45,479 nucleotides of DNA. Origin: Candidatus Zipacnadia bacterium (GTDB lineage Bacteria; Armatimonadota; Zipacnadia; Zipacnadales; UBA5352). The notes under the pieces were generated by a model. The model was given only the letters and a program-made list of their open reading frames with translations. It made no database searches and was not told the DNA's origin. Position 1 is the first letter of the stretch. The number at the start of each line of letters is the position of its first letter. Made by a program: the position numbers and the translations under genes. Shown here in pieces: positions 19,807 through 40,509 of this stretch. Location: positions 1 through 45,479 of the forward strand of contig JALGVA010000031.1 in NCBI GenBank assembly GCA_029820295.1. The letters run 5' to 3'.

Positions 19807-21939
19807 CTACCCCAGCTCGATGCGCAGCACCTTGTAGATGTGCAGCGACGGCACCATGATGTGCGCGCGGCCGTCGCGCGTGTCATGCGCCAGCGCCTCC
19901 GGCCCATCGGCATCCGGGGCGAAGGCCGTCGCCGCCACCACGGCCGCGCCCTGGGGTAGCGGCACACTCAGCTCCAGGTTCGTCTTGTCCTCCAGCGGCT
20001 CGGGCTCGGCGCCCAGTGGCGTGTCGTAGTTGAGCAGGTGCAGCACCATCGCGTCGCCGTCGGGGTCGATGAAGGCGTTCACGCGCACGCCCGGCCCGGC
20101 GTCGGGGGCGATGTCCAGTTCACCCGCCCGGCGGGAGAGCAGCCCCGCGACTTCGTCGAGCGGAATGCGCGAGTAGCGCAGCCACGTGCCCTCGCCGTAG
20201 GGCATGTTCTCGTGCAGCTCCGCCCCCTCCGGGGCCGGGCGCAGGGCGGCGGGCAGTCTCTGAGGATCCAGCGGCTGCACGCGCAGATCGTGGGTTGGCG
20301 TCTCGCCGATGATCAGCGCCCGTCCGCCGGCGCGCACGTAGCCGTCGAGGGCATCGATCTGCTCGCGGCTCGCGTACCGCACGTCCGCGAACACCACGGC
20401 GGGATAGGCGGCCAGCACCTTCGGCGTGAAGCGGTCCTCGGTGATGTAGTCGAAGAGCACGTGGGCGTCGAGCAGCTCGGCGGTCACCTGCTCGACCGAC
20501 GTGACGTGCTTGCGGTTCTCGTAGAAGTTCTGGTCGCCGAAGGCCGCGATGCCCACCTGCGCATACGGGACGTAGCCGGCGAACAGATCCTCGTGGCCCT
20601 CAAAGAAGGCGCGGTAGCAGTTGAGCACGTCGGCATACTCGTTCCAGCGCGGGCGCAGCAGGAAGCCGGCTCCCGAACCGAAGGCCGCCGCCTCGGCGTT
20701 GCCCAGCGCGGCGGTCTCCTGATTGAGCACCCAGCCCGGCTCCTCGCTCGGGTAGCCGCCACGGGTAAGCAGCAGCGGCGACAGCAGCTCGCGCACCGCG
20801 AGGGTGTACTTGAGCTGCCACACATGGTCGTTGCGCACGGTCATGGAGATGTCGTCCACGATGCGCGAACGGATCAGCCCCGGGTGCGTACCGTAGTCGC
20901 CGATGGACAGCTCGTACATGATGTAGTTGCTGTCCATGAAGGCGTTGCGCACCGATTCGGGCCGGCCGTGGCCGCCGTTGGGGAAGAGGATGAAGCCGCC
21001 GCCGACCTCCTCACCGGCGCGTCGGATCGCCTGCTGGTGCTCATGGATGCTGTGCCGCCAGAAGCGCTGGGACTCCACCCAGCCGAGCGTCATGGGCTCG
21101 CCGGCCGCGGGCTTGACCGCGAGCGGCACCTGCTCGCCCGCGCCCACGCCGAACAGCAGCGGGATCTCCTCATCCACGTAGCGCTCGCGCAGCCAGTCCT
21201 GGTACTTCGCCTGGCAGAACCGGCAGTAGCACTGCTGGGTGCCGCCGTTGTCGATGAAGGCGCCGTCGTAGCCGACCGCGGCGACCAGGCGCGCCACCGC
21301 GTCGATCCAGGTGCGCCAGCCGGGGTTGTTGACACAGGCCGCGTAGCGCATATTGGGCTCATATGGAGGGTAGAACTCGTCCACGTCCGGCCTCACGCCG
21401 TAGGTGGACTTCATCGAGCCGTCGGGGTTGCGCTGCATCCAGTCGGCGGGGTCAAGCTCCGGGCGCGGCGGCAGGCCGAACTCAAGGTACTCGTCCCAGT
21501 GGTCGTAGAACTCCCAGAAGCCGGTGCGCCGGATGTGGCTGCCGCCGAGGGTGATGGAGCAGATGTAGGGCATCACCCAACGCACGCCCGCGGCGTGCAA
21601 GCCGTCCACCATCTCCTCGAGCCGGCGGAAGCGCTCGCGGGTCTCCGCCGGCGTGAGGCGCCGGATCGCGTCGCCCTTGCCGCCCGCCTGGTTCTCCCCG
21701 CCGACGCCCGCGATCGGCCCCCAGTTGTGGCTCATCACGACGTCCTTGCCGAGGTGCAGCAGCGTCGGGGGCGAGGCGGCGACCGCCGCGATGTACTCCG
21801 GGCTGTCGAGATGGCCCTGCCCGTAGTCAAGCACGTAGGTGATCGGCGGCCGGGTGCGCCAGTCAGGATCGGCGGCGAAGCCCGCGGGTGCCATCGCCAT
21901 CATTCCCGCCATCAGGATCAGAACGGTTGCCCTGCGCAT
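19807..21939 (-). CDS. Secreted putative glycoside hydrolase with beta-galactosidase-trimerisation-like domain
   Basis: The 710-residue protein has a signal peptide (MRRATVLILMAGMMAMAPAGFA), an N-terminal (beta/alpha)8-like part with WVMPYICS and GYDGAFIDNGGTQQCYCRFC (about 245-264), a pattern typical of hypothetical glycosyl hydrolases of the GHL6 kind, and a C-terminal class-I-amidotransferase-like/trimerisation domain (LAAYPAVVFADVRYASREQI, YVRAGGRALIIGE), then a beta-sandwich. Related proteins act on extracellular glycans; no activity is established. The start ATG follows GAGGGGGACACCGG. It lies 32 bases downstream of mdh and may be co-transcribed. The CYCxxC cluster could bind a metal or form disulfides. 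Confidence 0.72.
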   Translation of the reverse strand: MRRATVLILMAGMMAMAPAGFAADPDWRTRPPITYVLDYGQGHLDSPEYIAAVAASPPTLLHLGKDVVMSHNWGPIAGVGGENQAGGKGDAIRRLTPAETRERFRRLEEMVDGLHAAGVRWVMPYICSITLGGSHIRRTGFWEFYDHWDEYLEFGLPPRPELDPADWMQRNPDGSMKSTYGVRPDVDEFYPPYEPNMRYAACVNNPGWRTWIDAVARLVAAVGYDGAFIDNGGTQQCYCRFCQAKYQDWLRERYVDEEIPLLFGVGAGEQVPLAVKPAAGEPMTLGWVESQRFWRHSIHEHQQAIRRAGEEVGGGFILFPNGGHGRPESVRNAFMDSNYIMYELSIGDYGTHPGLIRSRIVDDISMTVRNDHVWQLKYTLAVRELLSPLLLTRGGYPSEEPGWVLNQETAALGNAEAAAFGSGAGFLLRPRWNEYADVLNCYRAFFEGHEDLFAGYVPYAQVGIAAFGDQNFYENRKHVTSVEQVTAELLDAHVLFDYITEDRFTPKVLAAYPAVVFADVRYASREQIDALDGYVRAGGRALIIGETPTHDLRVQPLDPQRLPAALRPAPEGAELHENMPYGEGTWLRYSRIPLDEVAGLLSRRAGELDIAPDAGPGVRVNAFIDPDGDAMVLHLLNYDTPLGAEPEPLEDKTNLELSVPLPQGAAVVAATAFAPDADGPEALAHDTRDGRAHIMVPSLHIYKVLRIELG

Positions 21940-26443: not shown

Positions 26444-26469
26444 GACTCCTCTTGAAGGGAGCGCTGGTT

Positions 26470-27351
26470 GTGCGGAGAAATCGCCCCGAGGCGGGCCGCC
26501 GGCACGGCGGCGTGCCTGACTGGCTGAAGGTGAAGACCGGCAAGGCGGGGCTGACGCGGCGCACGCGCGCGCTGCTGCACGACTGCGGCGTACACACCGT
26601 GTGCGAGGCCGCGATGTGCCCGAACATCGGCGAGTGCTTCAACTGCGGCACCGCCACCTTCATGCTGCTTGGAGACGTCTGCACGCGTGACTGTCGATTC
26701 TGCGCGGTCTCGCATGGCGATCCGGCGCCGCCAGACCCGGAGGAGCCCGGGAACGTCGCCGAGGCGGCGGCGCGGCTGGGCCTGCGCTTCGTGGTGCTCA
26801 CCTGCGTGACGCGCGATGATCTGCCCGACGGCGGCGCGGGGCAGTTCGTGGCCACGATGGCGGCGCTGCGCGAGCGTCTGCCCGAGGTGCGCATCGAGGT
26901 GCTGACGTCGGACTTCGGCGGCGACAGCGCGCCGCTGGACGCGGTTCTCGCCGCGCGACCGACCGTGTACAACCACAACGTGGAGACCGTCCGCCGACTG
27001 CAGAGCGCCGTGCGGCCGCAGGCGGACTACGAGCGATCGCTGGCGGTGCTGCGCCACGCGGCGGCGCATGCGCCGGAAGCGATAGTGAAGTCGGGGCTGA
27101 TGGTGGGCCTGGGGGAGACGCGGCAGGAGGTGGGCGAGGCGCTTGGGGACCTCGCCGACGCCGGCTGCCGGGTGGTCACCATCGGCCAGTACCTGCGGCC
27201 CTCGCCGGCGCATCTGCCGGTCGAGCGTTATGTCACGCCCGAAGAGTTCGCGCTCTATGAGCGCATGGGCCTCGAGCGCGGCCTGGCCCGCGTGGTCAGC
27301 GGGCCGTTCGTGCGCAGCAGCTACCATGCGGCCGAGGCCGCGGAGATCTAG
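26470..27351 (+). CDS. lipA: Lipoyl synthase
   Basis: LipA inserts two sulfurs into octanoyl groups on 2-oxoacid dehydrogenase E2 or GcvH subunits. In the 293-residue protein the auxiliary cluster ligands are C45-x4-C50-x5-C56 (CEAAMCPNIGEC), the radical-SAM ligands C71-x3-C75-x2-C78 (CTRDCRFC), and the RSSY near the C-terminus (VRSSYHA) supplies the serine ligand of the auxiliary cluster. IKSGLMVGLGE-like sequence (VKSGLMVGLGETRQEV) is typical. The start is GTG 26470 with AAGGGAG about 9 bases upstream. No lipB or lplA is adjacent. Cluster donors may include the Nfu protein. Confidence 0.95.
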   Translation: MRRNRPEAGRRHGGVPDWLKVKTGKAGLTRRTRALLHDCGVHTVCEAAMCPNIGECFNCGTATFMLLGDVCTRDCRFCAVSHGDPAPPDPEEPGNVAEAAARLGLRFVVLTCVTRDDLPDGGAGQFVATMAALRERLPEVRIEVLTSDFGGDSAPLDAVLAARPTVYNHNVETVRRLQSAVRPQADYERSLAVLRHAAAHAPEAIVKSGLMVGLGETRQEVGEALGDLADAGCRVVTIGQYLRPSPAHLPVERYVTPEEFALYERMGLERGLARVVSGPFVRSSYHAAEAAEI

Positions 27352-27402: not shown

Positions 27403-30400
27403 ATGACCAACCGTGTGCTGACAATCGTGCTGATCCTCGGCGTCACCGCCGCCCTGCTCTTCGAGGCCGGGCGCAGCGTCCTGACGCCCGAGGGGCGCTG
27501 GCGTGCCTGGCTGCAGGCGCTGGTGGCGCAGCAGGCCGCGGACATCCTCAACCGCCAGGTGCAGCTCGGCCCGGTGACGGACATCTCGCTCACCGGCGTT
27601 GAGGCCCGCGACCTGGCGGTGGCGGAGGAGTTCGCGCTGGCCGACGGCCTGCTCGCCGAGGCTGAGCGGCTGCGGCTGAGCTTCGACGCGGTGGGCATGC
27701 TGCGCGGCCAGGTGGCGCCCGCCGCCGCCATCGACCTGGTGGAGCTGGCCGGCGTCCGGCTGCACGTGGTGCGTGACGAGCAGGGCGAGCTGAACCTGCA
27801 GAAGCTGCTGCCCAAGGGGCCGCCGGCGCCGCCGGAGGAGCGCTTCCAGGGCCTCGTGCGTATATGCGACACGGACGTCGTCTACGATGACTATGCGCTG
27901 CCCACCGCCCACGGAGGCGTGTTCAACGTCGAGCTGACGCAGATCGACGCGGAGATCGACCTGCGGCGCACGGGGTGGGCGAAGATCGACCTGTCGGCCG
28001 GCGAGCGGCTGGGACGCGTCGGGTCGCTGCTGCTCGAGGCTGAGAGTGAACTCGACACGGGCTTCGTGTGGGCCACGGTGCGGCTGGGCGCCGTGGATGC
28101 CGCCTGGTGGTACCAGACCTTTGTGCCCGGCCGCGACATCCTGATCGAGCGCGGGCGGGTGGACATCGAGGCCAGCATCGGCCTGGTCGAGCAACACGGT
28201 CGGCCGCAGGCGTCGGTGTCGGGCGATGTCACCGTGCGGGACGTTGCGGTGCGGTTGGCGGCGCTGGGGGGCAGGCGGATCACGGGTAACCTGGATGCCA
28301 GCGGGACCATGGCGGGTGTGGAGGTGCACCACCTGAACGCCCGCATGGGCGGCGTGAGCATTGACGCGGGCGGCTTCCTGGGCGACTTCTCCGACCCCGT
28401 GCTCGACCTGGTCTTCGACGCGCGCGCGACGCGCCCGGAGGAGCTGCTGGACCTGGCCCCCGAGGAGGCGGGCCTGGAGGAGCAGCTTGCCGGGCTGGAC
28501 GTCAGCGGGCCGGTGCTGGTGTCGGGCGCGCTGACCGGGCCGCTCGCGCGGGCGAATGTGAGCGCGCAGATAGGCGCCCCCGGCATGGTGCGCTACGCCG
28601 ACGCCGACCTGGGCGAGATCACCGCGGGGCCGCTGGACGTGCGCGTGGACGTTCTGGACCTGACCAGCCCCAATGTGCGCGCCCGGGCGGAGGTCGCCGC
28701 GGTGGACCCGGTGGACGTGAGGCCGCTGGCCGGGCGCCTGCTGGGGAGCCCGGGGTCCGGCGGTAAGCCCACGCCTGTGGAGATGCTGGCCGAGCACCTT
28801 GAGGTGGAGCCGCTCGAGGGCGTCGCGGCCGACGTGTTGTGGTCGCCTGAGCTGCCGCTCGCGCAGACCCGGCTGGAGCTGCCCCGCGTGGCGGCCGGCG
28901 ACCTGGAGGTCAGCAACCTGAGCGCCGACCTGGCGCTGGCGGGCGACGTCCTGCTGGTGCGCGACCTCTACGCCGAGCCGCTGGGCGGACGGCTGACTGC
29001 CGACGCGGTGGTGGCGGTCACCGGGCCGGAGGCGCCCTGGGCGTGGGCGCGGGGGGAGACCGAGCTCGACCTGTCCCGCCTGGCCGAGCTGCCTGAACTC
29101 GAAGACCTGCGCGAGCTGGGCGGCACCGCGTCGGCGCGCTTCGCCGGCGGCTGGGACGGCGAGGCGCCGATGGCGGTTGCGCAGGTGGAGCTGGACGAGC
29201 CGCGCTGGCAGCAGTACGGTGTGCGCTCCGCAGAGGGCCTGGTGATGCTCGACGCCGACAGCGTGCAGGTGCGCGGCCTGACCTTCGAGGACCCGGTGGC
29301 GCGTGGCTGGGCGAGCGGGGTGATGCCCTTCGAGGGAGAATTGGCCGGCAGCTTCGGCGTGGCGGACGTGCGGCTGGCGATGCTCGACGACCGCTTCGAC
29401 CTGCCGACGGAGAAGCTGCGTGGTGAGGCCTTCATCAGCGGCGACTTCGGCGGGACGCCCGACGCCCCCCGGGTGGACGCCACGGTGCGGGCCTTCGCGC
29501 CGGGCTGGGGCGACTACTCCGTTGACGCGGCCATGGGGCGCGTGTACGGGGACGTGGACGCGTTGCACATCGAGGACCTGTACGCGTCCGCGGGGCGCAT
29601 CGTCGCTCGCGTCAGCGGCACGCTGACGCCGCAGATGGACGGCGGCGCACAGCCGACCCCGGCGGAGGTGATGGACGCGCTCATGCAGCCCGGGGGCGCA
29701 CAGAACGTCGCCCTCGACGGCACGGTCACGCTCGCCGGGCCGGTGGACCGGAACGCGCTGGAGCTGGCGGAGCTTGAGGAGTACGAGACGGCGGGGGCGG
29801 TGACCGCGGACATCAAGATCGCCGGTACGCTCGCGCGGCCCAGTGCCCGCGGTGAGGTGCGGCTGCCCTACGCACACTATGACACCGTCGCCACTGATGA
29901 CGCCATCCTGACGGTCAGCCTGCAGGGCGATGTGCTGGAGTTGGAGGAGTTCGAGGTGCCGGTGGGGGGGGCGCTGGTCGCGGGAGGGGCGAGCGTCACC
30001 TCGATCTACGACGAGCCGATCGTCTCGGTGAACGTGAGCGCCAGCAACCTGGTGCTGCAGGACCTGGCGCCGTGGCAGGAGGTGGACCTGCCGCTAAGCG
30101 GCAGGGTCGATCTGCCCGTCCTCAGCCTCACCGGACCGCTGCACGATCTCTACGGCGTTGCGCGGATGGAGGCGCGCGACCTCGAGCTGGGGCGCGAGGA
30201 GATCGGCGGCGTCTCGGCCGATGTGGTGTTCGATGAGAACACTCTCATGCTGCAGCGGACGACGCTGGCGCTGGCGGAGGGCACGCTGTCGTTGGGGGGC
30301 AAGGTGGAGCTGAGCAAGCCGCTGCGCATCGACGAGCAGAACCCGCTGGCCGTCGAGCTATCGGACGTCTCGATCGCCAGGCTGCTGCGCGTGGCCGTGC

Positions 30401-32856
30401 CGCTGGCGGAGCGGTTCGGCGATGCGCCGCCCGAGGAACTGGCCCCGGGCGAGCAGCCGCTGTCGAAGCGGCTGGCGTCGCTGTCGATGCGGCTGAGCGG
30501 ACGGCTCGACGGGTCGGTGTCGGTGGGGGGGGCCGCGCCGACCATCGCGGAGGACGCCGAGCCCACCGAGGCGATCCGGACTGTGCTCGAGGCCCTCGCG
30601 GGCAGAGCGCGGGTTGCATGGCGTGACGCGGCCTTCGACGGCAAGCCGCTGCCGGATACCGAGGTGACCGCGAACACCACCGAGGAGGCCGGGGTCGCTC
30701 TGACGCTGGAGGCCACCGAGGGCGACGCGCTGATTACCACCGACGGCACCTGGCAGCCCGAGGGCGACATCGACATGCTGGCCGAGGTGTCGGCGCTGGA
30801 CCTCGCGCTGCTGCGGCCGTGGGTGCCCGAGGCCGTGGAGTCACTGGGCGGGCGCCTGAACCTGACGGTGCAGGCCACCGGCTCGACCGCCGATCCCCAG
30901 GTCATCGGCAGCCTGGACATCCTTGAGCCCGAGGTGCACGGCGCGCAGTTTGACATCATCTCCGCGCCGACCTTCGAGTACCGTGGCGAAGCGCTGACCA
31001 TCAATGACCTCGTCGTCCGCGAGGACGAGGAGGAGTTCTACGTTGACGGCACGGTGCCGTTCGACTGGGACACGCGCAGCGTGCCGACGGGCGCCGAGTT
31101 TAACGTCGCGCTGCGTGCCGACCAGGTGAGGCTGGCGATCTTCCCGCCGCTGATCGCCGACGTGCTGGAGTCACAGGGGCAGAGCGCCGAGTGGCTCGCA
31201 CAGGTCAACGCCACCGGCTCGCTGTCCACTGCGCCGCCGTCCGCCGAGCCCGGAGAGGTGGAGAGCATCACGCTGAGCGGGGCGCTGGTGGAGGCCGAAC
31301 CGCAGGCGCAGCCCGCCGAGGACGGGGCGCCGGTGCGTGAGCTGAAGCTCGCGGTGAGGGGGGCGCTGAGCGTGCAGGCCCCGACGATCACCGTCCCGTG
31401 GTTGGGCAGCCCGGTCGAGGACCTGGCGGTCGGCCTCGAGTTCGCGAGCACGGGAGGCGGCGGCGACGATGAAACGTTCGGCGACGCTGAAGCCAAGACG
31501 GTCGTGACGCTGAACACCTTCTCCGCACGCGTGGAGAGCACGGAGCTTGAGGCCAGCGGTGAGGCGACGCTGTCGGTCTACGAGCCGGCGAAGCTGCAGG
31601 AGAACGAGTACCACTTTGCGGCCAGCGTTCAGGCGCCGCAGCAGAGCCTGGCGGACGGGCTGACCGCGCACAAGCTGCGCGGCACGCTGACGCTGGACAC
31701 GCAGGCGGACGGAACCCAGCTTGTGAGCATCGATGATCTGGGCGCCGATTTCGGCGGGGGGAGCGTGCTGCTCGGGGGAACCGTTGGGGTGAGCAGCTTC
31801 CTGCCCTCCAGGCTGGCGGACAACGATTTCGACCTGGCGCTGGTCGTGGACCATGCCCGGCCGCGCTACTCGAACCTGTTCCTGGGCACGGTGGACGGTA
31901 AGATCACGTTCGTGAAGCCGCCTTCGGACGAGCCCATGACGATCTCCGGGGGCCTGACAATCTCGCACGCAGAGTTGGGCATGCCGCGCTCAAGCGGGGA
32001 GGGGGAGCGCGAGCTGCACGGGATGCCCGCGGGCTTCCCCAGCCCCAAGCTCGACCTGTGGTTGGCCATCGGGCCGGATGTGCGCGTCAAGACCACGGGC
32101 ATGGCCGCGCCCCTGGAGCCAAATGAACGTGCGCTGACGGTGGGAGGTGATCCACAGCGGCCGATTGTTCAGGCGTTGGTGGAAGTGCAGCAGGGCGAGG
32201 CGAGCGTCCCTGGTGGCGTGCTGGATATCCAGACGGCCGGTGTGCGCCTTCTCGTGCGCCCGAGGGGGCTCAGGCGACGCAGGCCGCCGGTGCCGCTGGC
32301 GATGGAGGGGCGGGTGTGGGCGACCGCGACGCGCATGGTCGAGTCGACCATGGTCGAGGGCCGTGAGGTGGGGCCGATCGAGATCCAGCTTGATGTGAGC
32401 GGCACCTTGCCGGACAACATCATCGTGCAGGTGCGCTCGGTTCCGCCGCTGTCGGAGGAGCAGATCTTCGCGCTGCTGGGCACCGCCCCGTTCTCCGGGG
32501 GCGGCGGGCTGGCCGGAGGCGGCAGCCTGGAGGATGTGATGACCGAGCAGTTCCTGTCGGCGCTGGGCGCGGCCTTCCGGCAGTACATCTTCCAGCCGTT
32601 CGAGGAGGATCTCAAGCAGCTCCTGGGCCTGTCGGTCTTCGAGGTGAACTTCGCGTTCGACCAGCCGGTGTCGTTGCGGCTCGGCGGCTACCTGGTCGAA
32701 GACCTGCTGGTCACCTACAGCACCTCGGTGCTGGCAGGGACGGAGGAGTACGATCTCGCCGTGTCCTATAAGGTCGAGCGGAGGTTCCAGGTGGGCTTCA
32801 GCACCAACGAGAGGAACGACCACCGGGTGTTCGTGGAATATGTGCGGACCTTCTGA
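27403..32856 (+). CDS. TamB-like translocation/assembly module protein (AsmA-like family)
   Basis: This protein of about 1817 residues has one N-terminal membrane anchor (VLTIVLILGVTAALLF) and then a long run of repeated beta-strands with AsmA/TamB character, ending in the DUF490/TamB C-terminal domain: SEEQIFALLGTAPFSGGGGL, QPFEEDLKQLLGLSVFEVNF and FVEYVRTF. It is longer than E. coli TamB (about 1260). TamB-like proteins bridge the periplasm and are implicated in phospholipid transport and barrel assembly with an Omp85 partner; bamA is two genes downstream. ATG 27403 lacks a strong SD; GTG 27367 is an alternative in frame. Located 51 bases after lipA, 59 before the sigma gene. Confidence 0.88.
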   Translation: MTNRVLTIVLILGVTAALLFEAGRSVLTPEGRWRAWLQALVAQQAADILNRQVQLGPVTDISLTGVEARDLAVAEEFALADGLLAEAERLRLSFDAVGMLRGQVAPAAAIDLVELAGVRLHVVRDEQGELNLQKLLPKGPPAPPEERFQGLVRICDTDVVYDDYALPTAHGGVFNVELTQIDAEIDLRRTGWAKIDLSAGERLGRVGSLLLEAESELDTGFVWATVRLGAVDAAWWYQTFVPGRDILIERGRVDIEASIGLVEQHGRPQASVSGDVTVRDVAVRLAALGGRRITGNLDASGTMAGVEVHHLNARMGGVSIDAGGFLGDFSDPVLDLVFDARATRPEELLDLAPEEAGLEEQLAGLDVSGPVLVSGALTGPLARANVSAQIGAPGMVRYADADLGEITAGPLDVRVDVLDLTSPNVRARAEVAAVDPVDVRPLAGRLLGSPGSGGKPTPVEMLAEHLEVEPLEGVAADVLWSPELPLAQTRLELPRVAAGDLEVSNLSADLALAGDVLLVRDLYAEPLGGRLTADAVVAVTGPEAPWAWARGETELDLSRLAELPELEDLRELGGTASARFAGGWDGEAPMAVAQVELDEPRWQQYGVRSAEGLVMLDADSVQVRGLTFEDPVARGWASGVMPFEGELAGSFGVADVRLAMLDDRFDLPTEKLRGEAFISGDFGGTPDAPRVDATVRAFAPGWGDYSVDAAMGRVYGDVDALHIEDLYASAGRIVARVSGTLTPQMDGGAQPTPAEVMDALMQPGGAQNVALDGTVTLAGPVDRNALELAELEEYETAGAVTADIKIAGTLARPSARGEVRLPYAHYDTVATDDAILTVSLQGDVLELEEFEVPVGGALVAGGASVTSIYDEPIVSVNVSASNLVLQDLAPWQEVDLPLSGRVDLPVLSLTGPLHDLYGVARMEARDLELGREEIGGVSADVVFDENTLMLQRTTLALAEGTLSLGGKVELSKPLRIDEQNPLAVELSDVSIARLLRVAVPLAERFGDAPPEELAPGEQPLSKRLASLSMRLSGRLDGSVSVGGAAPTIAEDAEPTEAIRTVLEALAGRARVAWRDAAFDGKPLPDTEVTANTTEEAGVALTLEATEGDALITTDGTWQPEGDIDMLAEVSALDLALLRPWVPEAVESLGGRLNLTVQATGSTADPQVIGSLDILEPEVHGAQFDIISAPTFEYRGEALTINDLVVREDEEEFYVDGTVPFDWDTRSVPTGAEFNVALRADQVRLAIFPPLIADVLESQGQSAEWLAQVNATGSLSTAPPSAEPGEVESITLSGALVEAEPQAQPAEDGAPVRELKLAVRGALSVQAPTITVPWLGSPVEDLAVGLEFASTGGGGDDETFGDAEAKTVVTLNTFSARVESTELEASGEATLSVYEPAKLQENEYHFAASVQAPQQSLADGLTAHKLRGTLTLDTQADGTQLVSIDDLGADFGGGSVLLGGTVGVSSFLPSRLADNDFDLALVVDHARPRYSNLFLGTVDGKITFVKPPSDEPMTISGGLTISHAELGMPRSSGEGERELHGMPAGFPSPKLDLWLAIGPDVRVKTTGMAAPLEPNERALTVGGDPQRPIVQALVEVQQGEASVPGGVLDIQTAGVRLLVRPRGLRRRRPPVPLAMEGRVWATATRMVESTMVEGREVGPIEIQLDVSGTLPDNIIVQVRSVPPLSEEQIFALLGTAPFSGGGGLAGGGSLEDVMTEQFLSALGAAFRQYIFQPFEEDLKQLLGLSVFEVNFAFDQPVSLRLGGYLVEDLLVTYSTSVLAGTEEYDLAVSYKVERRFQVGFSTNERNDHRVFVEYVRTF

Positions 32857-32915
32857 CACCGGCCGCGGACCGGCCGCAGGCAGCGCGCAACCCGCAGCGG
32901 GAGAGGCTGTCTAAA

Positions 32916-33536
32916 GTGAACGGCGACGCCGGCGCCGGGGCCCGTGAGGCGACCAGCTTCGGGGGCGAGGGCATGCACAGCGCCAACCGGCCGCACCCGC
33001 CCTTCGCCCAGGTCGTCGCGGAGAACTACGAGCGCATCTACAACGTCATATACCGGCTCGTCAACGATGACGAGGAGGCGGCGGACCTCACCCAGGACAC
33101 CTTCATCGCCGCCCACCGCGCCTACGGGCGCTTCCGGCATGAGGCGTCGGCCTACACCTGGCTATACCGCATCGCCGTCAACCTGACCAAGAACCGGTTC
33201 GAGCGGCAGCAGCGTGTCGATGCGCGTGAGGCGTTCTCGCTGGATGCGCCCGTGCAGCTCGACAGTGATGATGTGTCGCGCCAGGTGGAGGACTGGGCGC
33301 TGGCGCCTGACCGGGTGGCCGAGAACGATCAGTTGCGCGCGATCGTGCTGCGGGAAGTGGCGGCGCTCAAGTACGACTACCGCGAGGTCGTGGTGTTGCG
33401 CGACCTCGAGGGGCTGCGCTATCGGGAGATCGCCCGGGTGCTGGGGTGTAGCGTGGAGGCGGTCAAGAGCCGCCTCTTCCGGGCGCGCAGCGTGCTGCGC
33501 GAGCGGCTCGAGGAGCTGCTGGAGGAGATACCCTGA
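32916..33536 (+). CDS. ECF-type RNA polymerase sigma factor
   Basis: The 206-residue protein has sigma region 2 (FAQVVAENYERIYNVIYRLV, DDEEAADLTQDTFIAAHRAY, and the -10-reading YTWLYRIAVNLTKNRF) and region 4 (YREVVVLRDLEGLRYREIA, CSVEAVKSRLFRARSVLRE), without regions 1 or 3: an ECF (SigE/RpoE-like) factor. No anti-sigma gene follows; instead bamA starts 55 bases downstream. ECF factors of this kind often sense envelope damage. GTG 32916 follows GGGAGAGG; ATG 32973 with GGGGGCGAGG upstream would remove 19 residues that lie before the conserved part. Confidence 0.92.
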   Translation: MNGDAGAGAREATSFGGEGMHSANRPHPPFAQVVAENYERIYNVIYRLVNDDEEAADLTQDTFIAAHRAYGRFRHEASAYTWLYRIAVNLTKNRFERQQRVDAREAFSLDAPVQLDSDDVSRQVEDWALAPDRVAENDQLRAIVLREVAALKYDYREVVVLRDLEGLRYREIARVLGCSVEAVKSRLFRARSVLRERLEELLEEIP

Positions 33537-33591
33537 CAGGCCGCGCGCGTGTGAGGCGAAGCGGAATGCGCGCAGTCGTGAGGAGCATGGG

Positions 33592-35487
33592 ATGGCTATG
33601 AAGCCAAGCGCACGGATCGCCGTCGTGGTCGCGCTGGCCCTGTCGGGCGCGGCCGCGTTCGCTCAGGACAACCCGCTCATCGGGGAGGTGGTGGTCGAGG
33701 GGAATGACTACGTCGCCCGGGAGCCGATCCTGGACGTGGTCAAGGACGTGCTCGTGGTCGGCCAGGAGTTCACCGACACCCGGGCCACTGAGGCGCGGCG
33801 GCTGATCATGCGCATGGGCTACTTCGACGATGTCACGCTCTCGGTGGAGCAGTTGGAGGAGGGTGTGCGCGTCGTCATCACCGTGGTGGAGAAGCAGCGC
33901 ATCGAGCAGGTCATGTTCGCGGGCAACACGGTCATCTCCGACGAGGAGTTGGCCGAGGCGATCAACACCAAGCCCGGCCACGTCGCCGACGAGCGCGCCA
34001 TCGGCCGGGATGTGCGCCGCATCGAGGACTACTACGAGGCGCAGGGCTATATTGCCAAGGTCTCCGAGGCCAAGGTCGATGAACTCGGCGTACTGACCTT
34101 CGTGGTCGAGGAGGCGCGCCTCGAGGACATCGTCATCGAGGGCCTGACCCGCACCAGGGAGTGGGTGGTGCGCCGGGAGCTGCAGCTCGAGCCCGGGGAG
34201 CTGTTCCGGCTGCCCGAGGTTACGGCGGCCATCCGCCGCGTGACCGCGCTGGGACTGTTCGAGACGCCGGAGTTCGATCTCGAGCCGGGCGTCGAGAACC
34301 CGCTTCGGGATGTCATCCTGGTGGTGAAGCTGACTGAAGCGAAGACCGGGCGGGCCTCGTTCGCGATGGCCTACTCGAGCCTCGACGACTTCGTGGTGAT
34401 GGTGTCGGCGTCCGAGAACAACCTCCGAGGGCGCGGCGAGCGCGCCTCGGTCACCGTGGAGATGGGGGGGCGCGAGAGCTACGAGGTGAGCTTCTTCGAG
34501 CCCTACCTGGATGCCCGCGGCTCAACGCTGCAGGTAAACGTCTTCGACACCGAGCGCACGCGCCGCTTCGTCGGCGGCACGGCCGTCGCCCTGGCCGACA
34601 GCGAATTCGATGAGCGCCGCACCGGCGGGAACTTCACCGTGACCACGCCCATCACCGACCGGCGTGCCTTCAGTGTGCGCTTCCGCTCCGAGGAGGTCTC
34701 CAGCTCGTTCTTCCAGGCCACGACGACCATCACGCCCGGGGTGGGCACGCTGTCCGCGCTGCAGCCGACCCAGGACCTGCTCCGCGGCGACGGGAACGAG
34801 TCGCCGATCCCCGACAACCCGGACCTGAACCCGGACGTGGCCGAGCCCGGGGACCTGCCCATCCCGGTCGAGGTCGCCGCGCCGCTGCATCCCGGCGGGC
34901 GCGTCAACAGCCTGGCGCTGGGGCTGATCGACGACGCGCGGGACGTGCGCACCGATCCGCACCGGGGTAGTTGGAGCCAGCTCTCCTTCGAGCAGGCGGG
35001 CAACTTCCTCGGCGGCGGCACTGAGTTCGGCAAGCTGTCGCTCGATCACCGGCGCTACTATGAGCTGGGCCACCACGAGACCATTGCCATGCGCGATGTT
35101 CTTGCCCTGCGTGTCATGGGCGGCACCAGCTTCGGCTCGCCGCCGCTGTTCGAGTCATTCAGCGTCGGCGGGTCGGACTCGTTGCGCGGCTATGAGCCGG
35201 ATCGCTGGCGCGGCGAGAGCCTGGCGCTGCTCAACCTCGAGTACCGCAAGCCGATCACGCCGACGCTGCGAGCAGTCGCCTTCGTGGACGTGGGAACCGC
35301 CTGGGGCGGAACCTTCGAGACCGTGGTGCCGGGCTTCGACCTGCCGGCCGACGACCAGGAGTTCTCCCCACACGTCGGAGCCGGGGTCGGCCTGCGCGTG
35401 CAGACGCCGATCGGCCCGATCCGTCTCGACGTGGGCTGGGGCGAGGACGGCAGCGAGACGCACTTCAGCTTCGGGCAGACGTTCTGA
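33592..35487 (+). CDS. bamA: Outer-membrane protein assembly factor (Omp85/BamA family)
   Basis: BamA inserts beta-barrel proteins into the outer membrane. The 631-residue protein has a signal peptide (residues 1-23, ending AAAFA), three POTRA domains (about 26-97, 98-170, 171-250; each with a GN/GL-type turn and Y/F-F-D strand such as MGYFDDVTL and LGLFETPEF), and a C-terminal barrel with the lid-loop motif GGSDSLRGYEPD (about 523-534) and a terminal phenylalanine (FSFGQTF). E. coli BamA has five POTRAs; three occurs in TamA and in BamA of other phyla. A Pro/Asp-rich insertion (about 395-438) interrupts the barrel. ATG 33592 follows AGGAG. Confidence 0.92.
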   Translation: MAMKPSARIAVVVALALSGAAAFAQDNPLIGEVVVEGNDYVAREPILDVVKDVLVVGQEFTDTRATEARRLIMRMGYFDDVTLSVEQLEEGVRVVITVVEKQRIEQVMFAGNTVISDEELAEAINTKPGHVADERAIGRDVRRIEDYYEAQGYIAKVSEAKVDELGVLTFVVEEARLEDIVIEGLTRTREWVVRRELQLEPGELFRLPEVTAAIRRVTALGLFETPEFDLEPGVENPLRDVILVVKLTEAKTGRASFAMAYSSLDDFVVMVSASENNLRGRGERASVTVEMGGRESYEVSFFEPYLDARGSTLQVNVFDTERTRRFVGGTAVALADSEFDERRTGGNFTVTTPITDRRAFSVRFRSEEVSSSFFQATTTITPGVGTLSALQPTQDLLRGDGNESPIPDNPDLNPDVAEPGDLPIPVEVAAPLHPGGRVNSLALGLIDDARDVRTDPHRGSWSQLSFEQAGNFLGGGTEFGKLSLDHRRYYELGHHETIAMRDVLALRVMGGTSFGSPPLFESFSVGGSDSLRGYEPDRWRGESLALLNLEYRKPITPTLRAVAFVDVGTAWGGTFETVVPGFDLPADDQEFSPHVGAGVGLRVQTPIGPIRLDVGWGEDGSETHFSFGQTF

Positions 35488-35511
35488 GCCGACCCGCCGT
35501 CGAGATCGCAC

Positions 35512-35536
35512 GCCGCGCCGGGCCCCCCGGCGCGGC
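35512..35536 (+). terminator. GC-rich hairpin after bamA
   Basis: Perfect 11-bp stem GCCGCGCCGGG / CCCGGCGCGGC with a 3-base loop, 24 bases after the stop. Followed by TTCG only. It may partly stop transcription, with a new start before the skp gene. Confidence 0.6.
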
Positions 35537-35585
35537 TTCGCAGTAACCGCAGATCGCCCGTGGGGCGGAGAAACCACCCCGCGCC

Positions 35586-35594
35586 TGGTACTGT
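35586..35594 (+). promoter_or_regulatory. Possible extended -10 promoter for the skp/ompH-like gene
   Basis: TGG followed by TACTGT resembles an extended -10 element in the 172-base gap between bamA and the Skp-like gene. No -35 is clear. Support is the preceding hairpin and the similar TGn layout of two other promoters here. Confidence 0.3.
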
Positions 35595-35659
35595 CTATGT
35601 CCCCGAGGATGGCGTCACCCGGCATCCCCGGCATCATGTCCGCAGTCAGGAGAGTCGTC

Positions 35660-36472
35660 ATGCCTGTGTACAGAAGCCTCACGCGCGCGCTGGTGCCGGC
35701 CGTGCTCGCCGCGGCCGCGTTCGCCACGGCACACGCCCAGGAGCCCGCGCCGATGCCCAGGATAGCCGTCGTCAGCCTGGCACAGATCGAGCGCGACTAC
35801 GTCTCCCTGCGCACGCAGGAGGAGACCCTGGGCCAGTGGCTGGGGCAGCGGCGCACCTTCCACGAGGAGTTGCTGAACTACGTGTTCCTGTCGGCCGAGG
35901 CCTTCCAGGAGGTCGTCGATCTGCTGCAGAAGCCGCGGCCGCTGTCGGAGGCCGACCAGGCGCGGCTGGACGAGCTGCGCGCCCTCTCGGACGAGAAGGA
36001 CGCCCGCTGGGCGGAGCTGCAGGCCAAGCCCGACCGCACGGCCGCCGAGAGCGAGGAGTTCAGCAGCCTGCAGGAGATCCAGGAGGCGCGGCTGGGGCAG
36101 CTTGAGGAGTCGTGGGGGGCGACCATGGACGAGCTGGGCGACCGCCGCCAGACGGCCGTGGCCGGCCTCATGAGCACGGTCGAGCAGGCCATCGTGGCGG
36201 AAGCCGAAGCGGGCGGGTACACGATGGTGCTCGACGCCGATGCGGTGTTCTTCGGCGGCGACGACATCACCGAGGCGGTGCTGGCGCGCCTCAATGCCGG
36301 GGCTGAGCCCGCCGCTGAGCCGGCGGCTGAACCTGCGGCAGAGCCGGCGGCTGAACCTGCCGCTGAGCCCGCCGCCGAGCCGGCCGCCGAGCCGGCGGCG
36401 CAGCCCCCGCCGGCGGGTGGCGGCGAAGAGACCGGTGGTGGCGAAGAAGGTGGCGAAGGCGGCGGCGAGTAG
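35660..36472 (+). CDS. Skp/OmpH-like periplasmic chaperone with Ala-Glu-Pro tail
   Basis: The 270-residue product has a signal peptide (ending ATAHA), then IAVVSLAQIERDYVSL, a long alpha-helical coiled coil rich in Glu/Gln/Arg (about 60-165), and a returning beta/alpha part (VAEAEAGGYTMVLDADAVFF) that match OmpH/Skp proteins, which hold unfolded barrel proteins in the periplasm. Unusual is the tail: eight AEPA repeats (residues about 215-246), AQPPPAGGG and a Gly/Glu stretch to the end. ATG 35660 follows AGGAG. The last 38 bases overlap the next gene. Position between bamA and lpxD is the classic one for skp. Confidence 0.82.
   Translation: MPVYRSLTRALVPAVLAAAAFATAHAQEPAPMPRIAVVSLAQIERDYVSLRTQEETLGQWLGQRRTFHEELLNYVFLSAEAFQEVVDLLQKPRPLSEADQARLDELRALSDEKDARWAELQAKPDRTAAESEEFSSLQEIQEARLGQLEESWGATMDELGDRRQTAVAGLMSTVEQAIVAEAEAGGYTMVLDADAVFFGGDDITEAVLARLNAGAEPAAEPAAEPAAEPAAEPAAEPAAEPAAEPAAQPPPAGGGEETGGGEEGGEGGGE
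36302..36397 (+). repeat. Eight tandem 12-bp units encoding AEPA
   Basis: Units of the form GCTGAGCCCGCC, with synonymous changes (GAG/GAA excepted, mostly third positions), encode Ala-Glu-Pro-Ala eight times in the Skp-like protein. A ninth, diverged unit (GCGCAGCCCCCG, AQPP) follows. Such a tract may vary in copy number between strains. Confidence 0.9.
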
Positions 36473-37637
36473 CTCGCAGCGCGCGCGCATCGTCTGGGCC
36501 GTCGCGCTGGCGGCGGCCGTGATGGCGGGCGTCGCCGGCGGTTGCGCCCCGCGCAGCGCACCGGCGCGCGGGGCCGCGGCCGAGCCGCGGGAGGGATACG
36601 CCTACACGGCGGTGCTGATGGCCGGGCACCCGCTCTACCAGGCGGTCGCGGATCTGGAGCGAGCACTGGAGGAACTCGGGGACGACGAGTGGGAGCCCGT
36701 GCTCGAGCCCATCGACGACCGCTTCGCGCAGGTGGCGTTCCTTGAGAGCCTGGCCTTTGCCGACCCGACCGACCGGCTGGCGGCGCTGCGCGGCCGGTGG
36801 CGCGACGCATACCCGTCACACCTGGCCTTGGGGCCGGGCGCGTACTCGCCCGACCTGCAGGCGCGCGTCGAGTGGGAGCAGCGGCGGTCCGAACGCCTGG
36901 TCGCGCGGCGCATGGCGGCGGCTGAGGCGGCGGAGGGCCGGCGGCTGGCACGGCTGCGCGCCGAGCTGGTGAAGCGCTACCAGGAGCGGCTGATCAACCT
37001 GCGCATTGATGCGTGGGCGGGGGGTGAGGAGGCTGAGGCCGCCAGGGCCGAGATCGAGCGCATCATGCCGGAGGTCGATGACATTCCGCAGCCGGGGGAG
37101 GTCATTGAGGCGCAGCTCGAGGCCGAAAGAGAGCGCAGCCGCGAGCTGCTCGCCAAGATGCAGATGCGCCTGCGGCGGCAGGCTCTGCTCGACATCATCA
37201 GCGCGCAGGAGCGGGCCGACGCGATCGCGGCCGACCGGCGCGTGGAGGTGCGCGGCGCCGGGCAGGCCCTCTACGAAGACATGGTCGCGGTGCTCTCGCA
37301 GCCGTGGGAGGGGATGCCGCCCGGGAGGGTGAGCACGGTAGCGGAGGTGGCCGAGCCGAATGAGCGGCTGGTGGAGGCCGAGAGCATGCGCGCGCGGGGC
37401 GAGCAGGTGCGCCGCGAGGCGGCTGATGAACAGCGGCGGCGATTGCTACGGGCATTGGGCAGGCTGCGGGCCCGCCTGAAGTCGGACACGGAGACCGCGG
37501 CGCTGGTAGTGGCACATCGCGACGGCATCGACCTGCAGCTCCTGCCGGGCGGGTCGGGCCGCGGGGAGAACATGACCGAAAGCATCGCTGAGAAGCTGGG
37601 GCAGTTCTGGAGCGATGCCGACGGGCGAAGGAGCTGA
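36435..37637 (+). CDS. Unrecognised coiled-coil lipoprotein between skp and lpxD
   Basis: No known family was recognised. The product of about 400 residues has a basic N-terminus, a hydrophobic segment and lipobox-like AGGC (Cys37), so it is probably a lipoprotein. It then shows a segment [20 protein letters not shown] that resembles the start of OmpH/Skp-like domains, and long charged helices, for example [20 protein letters not shown] and [20 protein letters not shown], predicted to be coiled coils. Location between skp and lpxD suggests a role in outer-membrane assembly. Start uncertain: GTG 36435, 36438 or 36450 all lie inside the skp tail. The gap to lpxD is 5 bases. Confidence 0.75.
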
Positions 37638-37642
37638 CGACG

Positions 37643-38704
37643 GTGGCGCAGATCTCGTTCAAACTGGCGGACCTGGCACAATTCCTCGACGCTGAACTGC
37701 GCGGCGATGGTGACATCACCATCACCGGCGCGGCCCACCTCGAGGATGCCTCGGACGGGCACATCACGTTCGCGGACGGGCCCAGCCTGCAGCCCCTGTG
37801 CGACGTCAGCAACGCCTCGGCGCTCATCGTCCCGCCCGACGTAGAGGTGCGGGACAAGCCGTTCATCGTCACCGAGGATCCGCGGCTGGCGTTCTCGAAG
37901 GTGCTGGAGATGTTCGCGCCCGACATGCGCCCGCCGGCCGGCGTCCACCCCACCGCGGTGCTGGGCGAGAACGTGGTGCTGGGCGAGGGCGTCAGCATCG
38001 GGGCCCACGCCTACGTGGGGGACAGCACCATCGTCGGCGACGACACCATCATCCATCCGCTCGCGTACGTCGGCCCCGAGGTCACCATCGGCGCCGCCTG
38101 CGAGATCCACCCGCAGGTCTTCGTGGGCGCGCGTGTGCAGCTCGGCAACCGCGTGACGTTGCACGCCGGCGCGGCCGTCGGCGCCGACGGCTTCGGCTTC
38201 CTGCAGACCGAGGAGGGCCACCGGAAGATCCCGCAGATCGGCACGGTGATCGTGGAGGACGACGTGGAGATCGGGGCCAACTGCACCGTGGACCGGGCGA
38301 CCGTCAGCGCCACGCGCATCGGCGCGGGCACCAAGATCGACGACCACGTGCACATCGCGCACAACTGCGTGATCGGGCGCAACTGCCTGCTGTGCGGCCA
38401 GGTGGGCATCGCGGGCAGCACGCGCATCGGCGACAATGTGGTTATGGGCGGCCAGGTGGGCGTCAACGACCACGTCACCATCGGCTCTGACGTCATCTTC
38501 GCCGCGCAGGCCGGGGTGTTCGGCGACATCGACGAGCCCGGGGTGTACTCCGGGCACCCGGCGCGCCCGCATCACGAGCAACTGCGCGTGACCGCACTGA
38601 CGCGGCGACTGCCCAGGCTGGTCGAGCGCATCAAGGAGCTGGAGAGCACGGTGAAGGAGCTGCGCGGCCGTCTCGGCGATGCAGATGACGATGCGACAGC
38701 GTGA
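37643..38704 (+). CDS. lpxD: UDP-3-O-(3-hydroxyacyl)glucosamine N-acyltransferase
   Basis: LpxD adds the second acyl chain to the lipid A precursor, in the third step of the Raetz pathway. The 353-residue protein has an N-terminal uridine-binding domain (about 1-100), a left-handed beta-helix of hexapeptide repeats (about 100-290: [38 protein letters not shown]) with the catalytic histidine in HIAHNCVIG (H240), and a C-terminal helix. The start is GTG 37643 after AAGGAG. The 3' end overlaps the next reading frame by 14 bases. It shows that this bacterium makes lipid A-type lipids. Confidence 0.96.
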
Positions 38705-39162: not shown

Positions 39163-40509
39163 GTGCCGCTGGGCGAGACCCGCTCGGTCCGCTTCGGCGG
39201 AACCATCGGTGTTGCGCCCGACGTCGAGAGCATGGCTCCCGACGTGGCGACGGCCGCGGTGGACCGCGCGGCGGGACGCATCGTGCTGACCGGTCGGGCC
39301 ACCGGCAGCACAGTCGCCACGATCGTCGTCGGCGAGGCGCGACATGCGCTCACCGTCGAGGTCAAGCGCTGGGCGGCGCGCATGGTCGCCCGCGCCACGG
39401 CACGCACCACCGGCGGCGGGCTCGACCCGGAGATGGCCGAGGTCGCCGCGCTCAACGCCGTGCTCGACGCCGTGAGCGCCGAGGCGGGCGCGACCGTGTA
39501 CATCACGCGCAAGGCCGAGACGACGACCGGACTGACGGTGTCGGTGCGCGCCGGCGGCGCCGACTTCATCCCCGTCTCCGGCGACATCGACGTAACACTC
39601 GCAGGCGGCCTGCCTGCGATCCCGGCACCCGAGGCCCTGTTGGTGAGCAACTACCCCGAACGCGTGACCGGGGTCGGCGCGCTTATGCGTCAGTCGCTCA
39701 CGGTCGGCCGCGCCGCGCGACTGATGTGGCATCACAAGAACTACGCGGGGCGGCCCATCGTGCTGGGTGTGCGGCTCATCAACGGGGGCGCGCAGACGGC
39801 CTGCCTGCGCGTGGGCTGGGCGGACGCAGGGCCGAACCCCGACGAGATCTTCGTGGGCTTCAACGCCATGTGCCGCTACTGGCAGACGGTCATGCGCGGC
39901 CAGGCCCTGCAACTGCGCATCCCCGCGGGCAGCTCGTTCGAGACGGTCGCGACGCATATGGACCCCACCGACGTGGTCAGTGGCCTCATGGACATTGCCG
40001 CGGATGAAGGCAGCGACCTCTACGTCGAGGTGCTGGGACGCGAGCCGCGCGACGAGCCCGCAGGCTTCATCCGCCTGCGCAATCCCGGCGACCCGCTGGC
40101 GGTCACGCCCTTCGAGTTTGCGGCCACGCTCGACAGCGAACTGAGCTACGAGGTGGGTGGACGCTTCGCGTACCTGAGCATCGGGCGCGAAGCGGTGGTC
40201 AACGAGGAGGGCGTGGCCCTGGACGGCGCCTACGGGGTCATGCACCGCGTGCGCATCACGCTGCACAACTCCGGCCCCGGCCCCGGTCGGGCGGAGATTG
40301 CCACCCGCGCCGGCGGCGGCGTCGCGCGGGTGGTGGTATCCATCGACGGCGCTACCGCGACCAGCAGCCTGCTGCGCGCAGGGCAGGAGGAAGTGCTGGC
40401 GAGGTACGACCTCGAGCCCGGCGCCGGCCGCGTGGTGAGTCTGCAGATGATCCCGACCGCCGGCTCGAACCTCCCCATCACGCTGGCCGTGCGCGGTAGT
40501 GCGCGCTGA
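39163..40509 (+). CDS. C-terminal part of the same protein, with secretin-N/pil_N-like segment
   Basis: The frame is continuous from about 39091 ([20 protein letters not shown]) and has a usable GTG at 39163. The segment ILVPLGETRSVRFGG then VATAAVDRAAGRIVLTGRAT and GSTVATIVVGEARHALTVEV matches the pilus-formation/secretin N-terminal (T2SS-T3SS_pil_N) pattern, a small beta-sandwich in CpaC-like proteins. The remaining 350 residues have no secretin domain and form beta-rich segments. It is therefore a periplasmic protein of unknown role. Together with 38691-39099 it makes one gene of about 600 codons. An intact gene with a sequencing or assembly error is as likely as a real mutation. Confidence 0.7.
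   Translation: MPLGETRSVRFGGTIGVAPDVESMAPDVATAAVDRAAGRIVLTGRATGSTVATIVVGEARHALTVEVKRWAARMVARATARTTGGGLDPEMAEVAALNAVLDAVSAEAGATVYITRKAETTTGLTVSVRAGGADFIPVSGDIDVTLAGGLPAIPAPEALLVSNYPERVTGVGALMRQSLTVGRAARLMWHHKNYAGRPIVLGVRLINGGAQTACLRVGWADAGPNPDEIFVGFNAMCRYWQTVMRGQALQLRIPAGSSFETVATHMDPTDVVSGLMDIAADEGSDLYVEVLGREPRDEPAGFIRLRNPGDPLAVTPFEFAATLDSELSYEVGGRFAYLSIGREAVVNEEGVALDGAYGVMHRVRITLHNSGPGPGRAEIATRAGGGVARVVVSIDGATATSSLLRAGQEEVLARYDLEPGAGRVVSLQMIPTAGSNLPITLAVRGSAR

Follow-up and report, generated by a model that had tools for sequence, protein, structure and literature searches.

Which genes does an ECF sigma factor serve, and which protein restrains it, if it is encoded in the middle of a cluster for outer-membrane assembly? 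In Escherichia coli the regulon of the envelope sigma factor sigmaE includes bamA, skp, lpxD, fabZ and lpxA, and a membrane anti-sigma is co-regulated by sigmaE. In the 45,479 nucleotides from Candidatus Zipacnadia bacterium analyzed here (the window; its contig is C326, and the genome has 5.6 Mb at 98.6% completeness) the sigma gene itself is part of such a cluster.

The sigma gene and its neighbors

The island contains the following genes and sequence elements:

26452..27351, plus strand, lipA (lipoyl synthase); TIGR00510, 369.7 bits against a cut-off of 310.25
27403..32856 (Pfam frame 27367/27403-32856), plus strand, tamB-like gene; PF04357 (TamB), 2.1e-20
32887..32914, plus strand, P1, ECF-type promoter-like element GCAACC-N16-GTCTAA, directly 5' of the sigma gene
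32916..33536, plus strand, ECF sigma factor gene; Sigma70_r2 (1.6e-16), Sigma70_r4_2 (2.4e-16), NCBIfam, orthologues
33592..35487, plus strand, bamA; Omp85 (7.5e-42), three POTRA stretches
35570..35598, plus strand, P2, the element once more, here as GAAACC-N17-GTCTAT, 5' of skp1
35660..36472, plus strand, skp1 (OmpH/Skp family); PF03938 (2.1e-11), signal-peptide-like start (by eye)
about 36519-37637, plus strand, skp2 (a label only); kept in relatives, lipobox-like start VAGGC (by eye)
37643..38704, plus strand, lpxD; TIGR01853, 364.2 bits against a cut-off of 242.5

All genes from lipA to lpxD, including the one for the lipobox-like protein, are read in the same direction. The gaps between them measure 59 nt (tamB/sigma), 55 nt (sigma/bamA), 172 nt (bamA/skp1) and then 46 and 5 nt, so that no room is left for a further gene on either side of the sigma gene. 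Neither the Pfam search nor the inspection of the gaps in the window found an anti-sigma gene adjoining it. This confirms the arrangement described in the original prediction: an ECF gene with no adjoining anti-sigma gene stands between a tamB-like gene and bamA, and skp and lpxD come next. The bamA product scores 237.4 bits with TIGR03303, under the cut-off of 297.15, and the product of 36519-37637 matched no family in the Pfam search. In TamB the top hydrophobic stretch, the N-terminal membrane anchor, starts from residue 5 and is preceded by few residues. A gene 3' of lpxD (39163-40509) is kept with the island, and its match to a pilus/secretin N-terminal domain is sub-threshold (0.065).

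The sigma factor comprises 206 aa with Sigma70_r2 and Sigma70_r4_2 as its only domains, which places it among the ECF sigma factors (TIGR02937, 101.9 bits against a cut-off of 42.9). It stays below the cut-off of the RpoE equivalog family (TIGR02939, 124.8 bits, cut-off 236.15), and the RpoE-like layout with rseA or another anti-sigma directly 3' is replaced by bamA at this position.

The order tamB-ECF-bamA-skp1-(36519)-lpxD is found in seven loci of the window's family (L039-L045), with lipA upstream in five of them, i.e. in all whose stretch extends to that point. This recurrence is an argument that the tamB-ECF-bamA arrangement is not due to chance. The sigma factors of these loci are 72-83% identical to that of the window, compared to 43-57% for TamB, 61-75% for BamA and 69-78% for LpxD; the sigma factor is thus better conserved than TamB or BamA and close to LpxD. 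If the window's own genome is counted, an intact sigma orthologue (72-83% identity) occurs in 8 of the 10 family genomes. In G003 tamB is followed by a sigma fragment where the contig ends, and G005 (59% complete), in which neither a sigma orthologue nor a match to the zinc-finger protein described below was found, was scored as a miss.

Outside the family we considered 40 loci from 39 genomes and 25 Armatimonadota families, hand-picked from the listed sigma-profile matches to spread over families, with some genomes overlapping the best-80 set below. Here bamA lies directly 3' of the sigma gene in 38 loci and tamB directly 5' in 35, and the possibility that the sigma gene is not conserved beside bamA in relatives is rejected. 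In a scan of named genomes 311 places were confirmed and the best 80 were analyzed. The closest relatives with a name are genomes assigned to candidate division WS1, to Candidatus Zipacnadia and to Armatimonadetes. TamB is encoded directly upstream in 35 of the 80, or 36 together with L087, whose contig begins in the sigma gene, and BamA is encoded downstream in 32 of these 36. The four others end with the contig (L074, L076) or have other genes there (L081, L089). No TamB match was found at the other 44 of the best 80 loci, which were not counted as support (L095 is among those set aside). One genome (G010, loci L272/L089) and L081 keep the tamB-sigma pair, and bamA was not found directly downstream.

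At E<=1e-55 the sigma profile matches, among the matches listed, in 173 of 291 genomes of the phylum. A threshold of E<=1e-42 (206 of 291) was dropped because a family paralogue passes it, too (G003, G005). The genomes without a sigma match, among those listed (n=20), all belong to family f25.

Promoter-like elements and the unlinked zinc-finger gene

A promoter motif ahead of the island genes was part of what the original prediction led one to look for, and copies of an ECF-type element (consensus about SAACC-N16-TGTCTAA) were found before the sigma gene, which bamA follows (P1), and before skp1 (P2). In its strict form P1 is present in 29 of 62 non-redundant tamB/sigma gaps, compared to a mean of 0.43 (maximum 3 in 300) for dinucleotide shuffles and 0 for reversed sequences over the same gaps. 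The 33 gaps missing it by this definition are mostly from outside the window's class. In the loci L061-L076 it was found in 16 out of 16, with diverged or unrelated spacer sequences. P2 occurs in all eight family genomes having the bamA/skp1 gap, some reading GTCCAA or GTCAAA, and an element before skp1 was also seen in two genomes of family f2. A scan of 46 genomes of the class with CAACC-N15/16-TGTCTAA gave 31 matches (15 in the tamB/sigma gap, 2 at skp1) versus 17 in the control; this pattern alone lacks specificity outside its context. The window has a third match of the motif on the minus strand at 20930, which was treated as chance because long overlapping frames enclose it.

The position of P1 bears on the start of the sigma gene. 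Throughout the window's family its -10 element stops one base 5' of the listed GTG (32916 in the window), which makes this start unusable for P1 transcripts; the in-frame ATG at 32973 is a possible start for them in the window, while an obvious alternative is absent in some family relatives. Outside the family the element stands well upstream of the sigma start.

A search of the window's genome for zf-HC2, a zinc-finger anti-sigma domain, gave 10 matches in nine proteins, eight of which adjoin another sigma gene and one of which is an orphan. Besides its two zinc fingers this orphan contains a single hydrophobic stretch, and its tail is long and rich in Pro and Ala. Its gene (G000:C143:19783-20791, L297, cut by the contig end; orthologues L296-L345) is located 3' of ftsA in 9 of 9 family genomes having it, where the ftsA-zinc-finger pair closes a run with murC and ftsQ, and with ftsW and murG, too, where the stretch extends that far. 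Two copies of the ZAS motif H-x3-C-x2-C are present in 48 out of 50 of the proteins and one copy in L303 and L304; PF13490 was matched. Against the PDB only RsiW (1.2e-9) and DdvA (3.7e-5) pass 1e-3 with the zinc-finger profile, followed by weaker matches to a CHAT-domain protein, a mycobacterial membrane protein, RsrA and RctB. Judged by eye, the C-termini seem to be conserved, with GIELR in the family, GIELR-like tails in the class and GIVVIK-like ones within the order. Those of other families (VARIEF, ARIIKASF, VNLFGSKF) often have a final F and alternating hydrophobic residues and resemble the ends of outer-membrane proteins.

The ftsA/zinc-finger gap contains a further copy of the element, P3, which reads GAAAC(C/T/A)-N16/17-GTCTAA. 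A pattern derived from P1 and P2 matched once in each of nine relatives' stretches (82 kb), always in this gap, and since the pattern had been fixed before P3 was known this is an independent test. The same pattern gave two matches in two other stretches of the genome, neither of them at a zinc-finger gene of this kind. Among 50 zinc-finger loci, the best-scoring of 141 genomes matched (one, G288, was skipped), P3 lies within 330 nt upstream in 37, and in 28 of the 41 outside the family; shuffles gave 0.47 (maximum 3) and reversed sequences 0. With patterns drawn from P3, 9 of 10 matches in ten whole genomes (control 4) and 14 of 15 in 46 whole genomes (control 3) fall at the zinc-finger gene, where the match at P3 itself is built in and the scarcity elsewhere is the informative part. 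P3 is found in 24 out of 27 loci with ftsA upstream and in 13 out of 23 without ftsA in the stretch (checked by tblastn; a few stretches are short). The latter suggests that the element travels with the zinc-finger gene.

One must keep in mind that some lineages which keep tamB-sigma, mostly with bamA, give no zinc-finger match at E<=1e-12 (e.g. f11 and f15), so the pairing of sigma and zinc-finger protein cannot be universal. As the promoter element is mostly absent in such lineages as well, the circuit has either diverged past the reach of the search or restraint differs there. In the window's genome eleven other Sigma70_r2 places are also without a zf-HC2 neighbor over the cut-off, and pairing by elimination alone therefore proves nothing.

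Proposed circuit, alternatives and known systems

We propose that the island sigma is probably an autoregulated, sigmaE-like envelope-stress factor that drives bamA, skp-lpxD and its own unlinked candidate anti-sigma, perhaps together with fabZ-lpxA. The two traits that make it sigmaE-like, an autoregulatory ECF promoter and outer-membrane targets, are seen in the sequence of P1 and P2. The proposal is built on gene order and its conservation, on the elements and their positions, and on domain architecture, from which we infer that the elements are promoters for the island sigma. The sigma factor would steer RNA polymerase to (G/C/A)AAC(C/T)-N15-17-TGTCTAA promoters: P1 would serve its own gene and bamA, P2 the genes from skp1 onwards through lpxD, and P3 the orphan membrane protein with its two zinc-finger anti-sigma domains. 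The PD40 propeller protein and fabZ-lpxA described below would be less certain targets. The orphan protein is a likely anti-sigma, whose N-terminal zinc fingers may hold the sigma factor in the cytoplasm, and its predicted topology continues with one transmembrane helix and a periplasmic tail that could act as a sensor of damage. Damage would then lead to proteolysis of the orphan protein, and the sigma factor would be freed. As it would also transcribe its own inhibitor, the loop would shut itself off.

With the sigma gene in the bamA operon and its candidate inhibitor in the division cluster, the building of the envelope may be linked to division. A more far-reaching version, which we regard as speculative and rather doubtful, is a two-locus stress circuit in which the sigma factor is made with BamA and the inhibitor with the division genes (by read-through from ftsA and from the sigma-dependent P3). 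The ratio of outer-membrane assembly to division expression would set the alarm, and the conserved C-terminal tail of the inhibitor would serve as a sensor peptide in the periplasm, where BamA or a PDZ protease would read it.

The restraint of the sigma factor could also be organized differently. The island sigma might read P1-P3 while the zinc-finger protein belongs to its regulon for a different task, or acts as anti-sigma to another sigma factor; the island sigma would then be restrained otherwise or by low expression only. The lineages that keep tamB-sigma-bamA with the zinc-finger orthologue undetected and the further unpaired sigma genes in the genome speak for this; yet the zinc-finger gene has a well-conserved element that is scarce in other places, and an autoregulated ECF gene commonly shares its regulation with the gene of its own anti-sigma. 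A paralogous ECF on contig C238, considered as the partner of the zinc-finger protein, was rejected, as it already has an adjacent protein of its own with a sub-threshold zf-HC2 match and no element upstream. In addition, 65 of the 73 genomes with a zinc-finger match of at least 140 of 193 positions have a sigma match at E<=1e-55, compared to 173 of 291 overall, among the matches listed and with the relatedness of genomes uncorrected. Taken with these points we consider this explanation unlikely, though one to be taken seriously.

The reading closest to the original prediction is that no protein restrains the sigma factor, or that it is under feedback from TamB or BamA. The island without an anti-sigma gene and the strict co-conservation of sigma with bamA fit this, but TamB has few residues before its anchor, BamA, skp1 and the product of 36519 seem, by eye, to be exported, and a cytoplasmic domain is found among the island products only in the enzymes LipA and LpxD. 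A co-regulated anti-sigma-like protein exists, and both versions of this reading are very improbable. That the element is an RNA or translation signal of the tamB/sigma gap instead of a promoter, with coincidental likeness at other genes, is hardly credible: it does overlap the ribosome-binding region of the sigma gene in the window's family, but lies well upstream of the start in other families, and the same two blocks with fixed spacing and unrelated spacers recur before skp1 and the zinc-finger gene. An unusual way of restraint, as first supposed, is thus probably the wrong reading, since the orphan double zf-HC2 membrane protein shares the promoter element. The notion of a self-contained unit holds as far as the island is conserved and has its own sigma factor and ECF-type elements; in view of the unlinked zf-HC2 candidate, self-containment is not supported. 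An anti-sigma encoded elsewhere, which would speak against the original prediction, is at hand in candidate form only, as this same protein.

The proposed circuit resembles the E. coli sigmaE-RseA system in its ECF sigma factor, a -35 element with a central AAC (GGAACTT in E. coli, according to an excerpt of PMC8103513), the activation of the sigma gene by its own product, a set of targets concerned with lipid A and the assembly of the outer membrane, and a membrane anti-sigma, here a candidate, that is co-regulated by sigma. It differs in that the sigma gene is inside the tamB-bamA-skp-lpxD operon, whereas the anti-sigma candidate is unlinked, often 3' of ftsA, and has two zinc fingers, with a match to zf-HC2 and not to RseA. 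For Neisseria meningitidis an excerpt of PMC2893595 describes a zinc-containing (ZAS) anti-sigma, NMB2145, encoded directly 3' of rpoE, a small regulon, and a promoter with -35 GTMAGBWTT, a spacer of 12-13 nt and -10 CGTCTAAH. The zinc-type anti-sigma (a candidate here) and the GTCTAA-type -10 are common to both systems, and the candidate is unlinked here.

In Bacillus subtilis the genes sigW and rsiW lie side by side, and RsiW contains a single zinc finger. RsiW is also the best PDB match of the zinc-finger profile, and P3 reads GAAACCTT in several genomes; the -35 box of SigW is ATTGAAACCTTT (PMC8103513, in excerpt), and the -10 block of the Armatimonadota element is GTCTAA. The same excerpt offers a precedent for an unlinked anti-sigma in Sinorhizobium meliloti, where RsiA1 is encoded away from its ECF RpoE2, although there the sigma operon carries a second anti-sigma, RsiA2. 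Class I anti-sigmas are reported near about one third of ECFs (PMC7406223, excerpt), and the review PMC8103513 treats ECFs without a neighboring anti-sigma as an open question, for which the anti-sigma could be encoded elsewhere. The present case indicates that an orphan-looking ECF can be paired with a distant candidate anti-sigma via a common promoter element.

The association of tamB, bamA and skp has been published for Negativicutes, Halanaerobiales, Spirochaetes and other phyla (PMC5007114, excerpt). While this synteny is known, the ECF gene as a fixed member within it, together with the unlinked promoter-sharing anti-sigma candidate, may represent a variant wiring of the sigmaE logic. 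The word "sigma" does not occur in the main text of PMC5007114, nor in that of PMC10290634, which describes Zipacnadia genomes as likely gram-negative with LPS genes. A literature search over titles and the beginnings of abstracts found no paper that describes an ECF gene within the tamB-bamA cluster of Armatimonadota. For this diderm phylum, most of which is uncultured, a sigmaE-like response can now be predicted with sigma factor, promoter elements, anti-sigma candidate and targets. It may be asked if the assembly of the outer membrane came under the control of ECF factors early in evolution or on two separate occasions.

Further possible targets

An element before fabZ-lpxA was found in three genomes, two of them in one genus. 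The corresponding scan with CAACC-N15/17-GTCTAA gave 12 matches, of which 8 belong to the sigma gene, 3 precede fabZ-lpxA and 1 is elsewhere, versus 15 in the control, and with so few genomes and this control fabZ-lpxA is a tentative target. A GGAAC-type -35 as in E. coli resulted in 37 matches in the ten family genomes versus 18 in the control; the 37 may include real targets. All 10 family genomes encode an M50 (RseP-like) protease, but so do all 14 controls.

A third form of the motif gave 27 matches in the ten family genomes (control 5), which are distributed over the zinc-finger gene (7), skp1 (8), one PD40 family (7) and one secreted family (2), with 3 unassigned. In 7 of the 10 family genomes the element precedes a gene of the PD40 propeller protein family (L213, L218, L212, L223, L225, L222, L217; assigned by a Pfam run on one member, L213). 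In three genomes (L206, L215, L350) it precedes the gene of a secreted-looking protein, which the end of the locus truncates and which has 475 aa or more; no Pfam family was found for L206 and L215, and L350 was grouped with them by eye, from its start. The sole match not at the zinc-finger gene in the scan of 46 genomes with the P3-derived pattern stands before a secreted protein, the start of which resembles the family seen twice with the third form.
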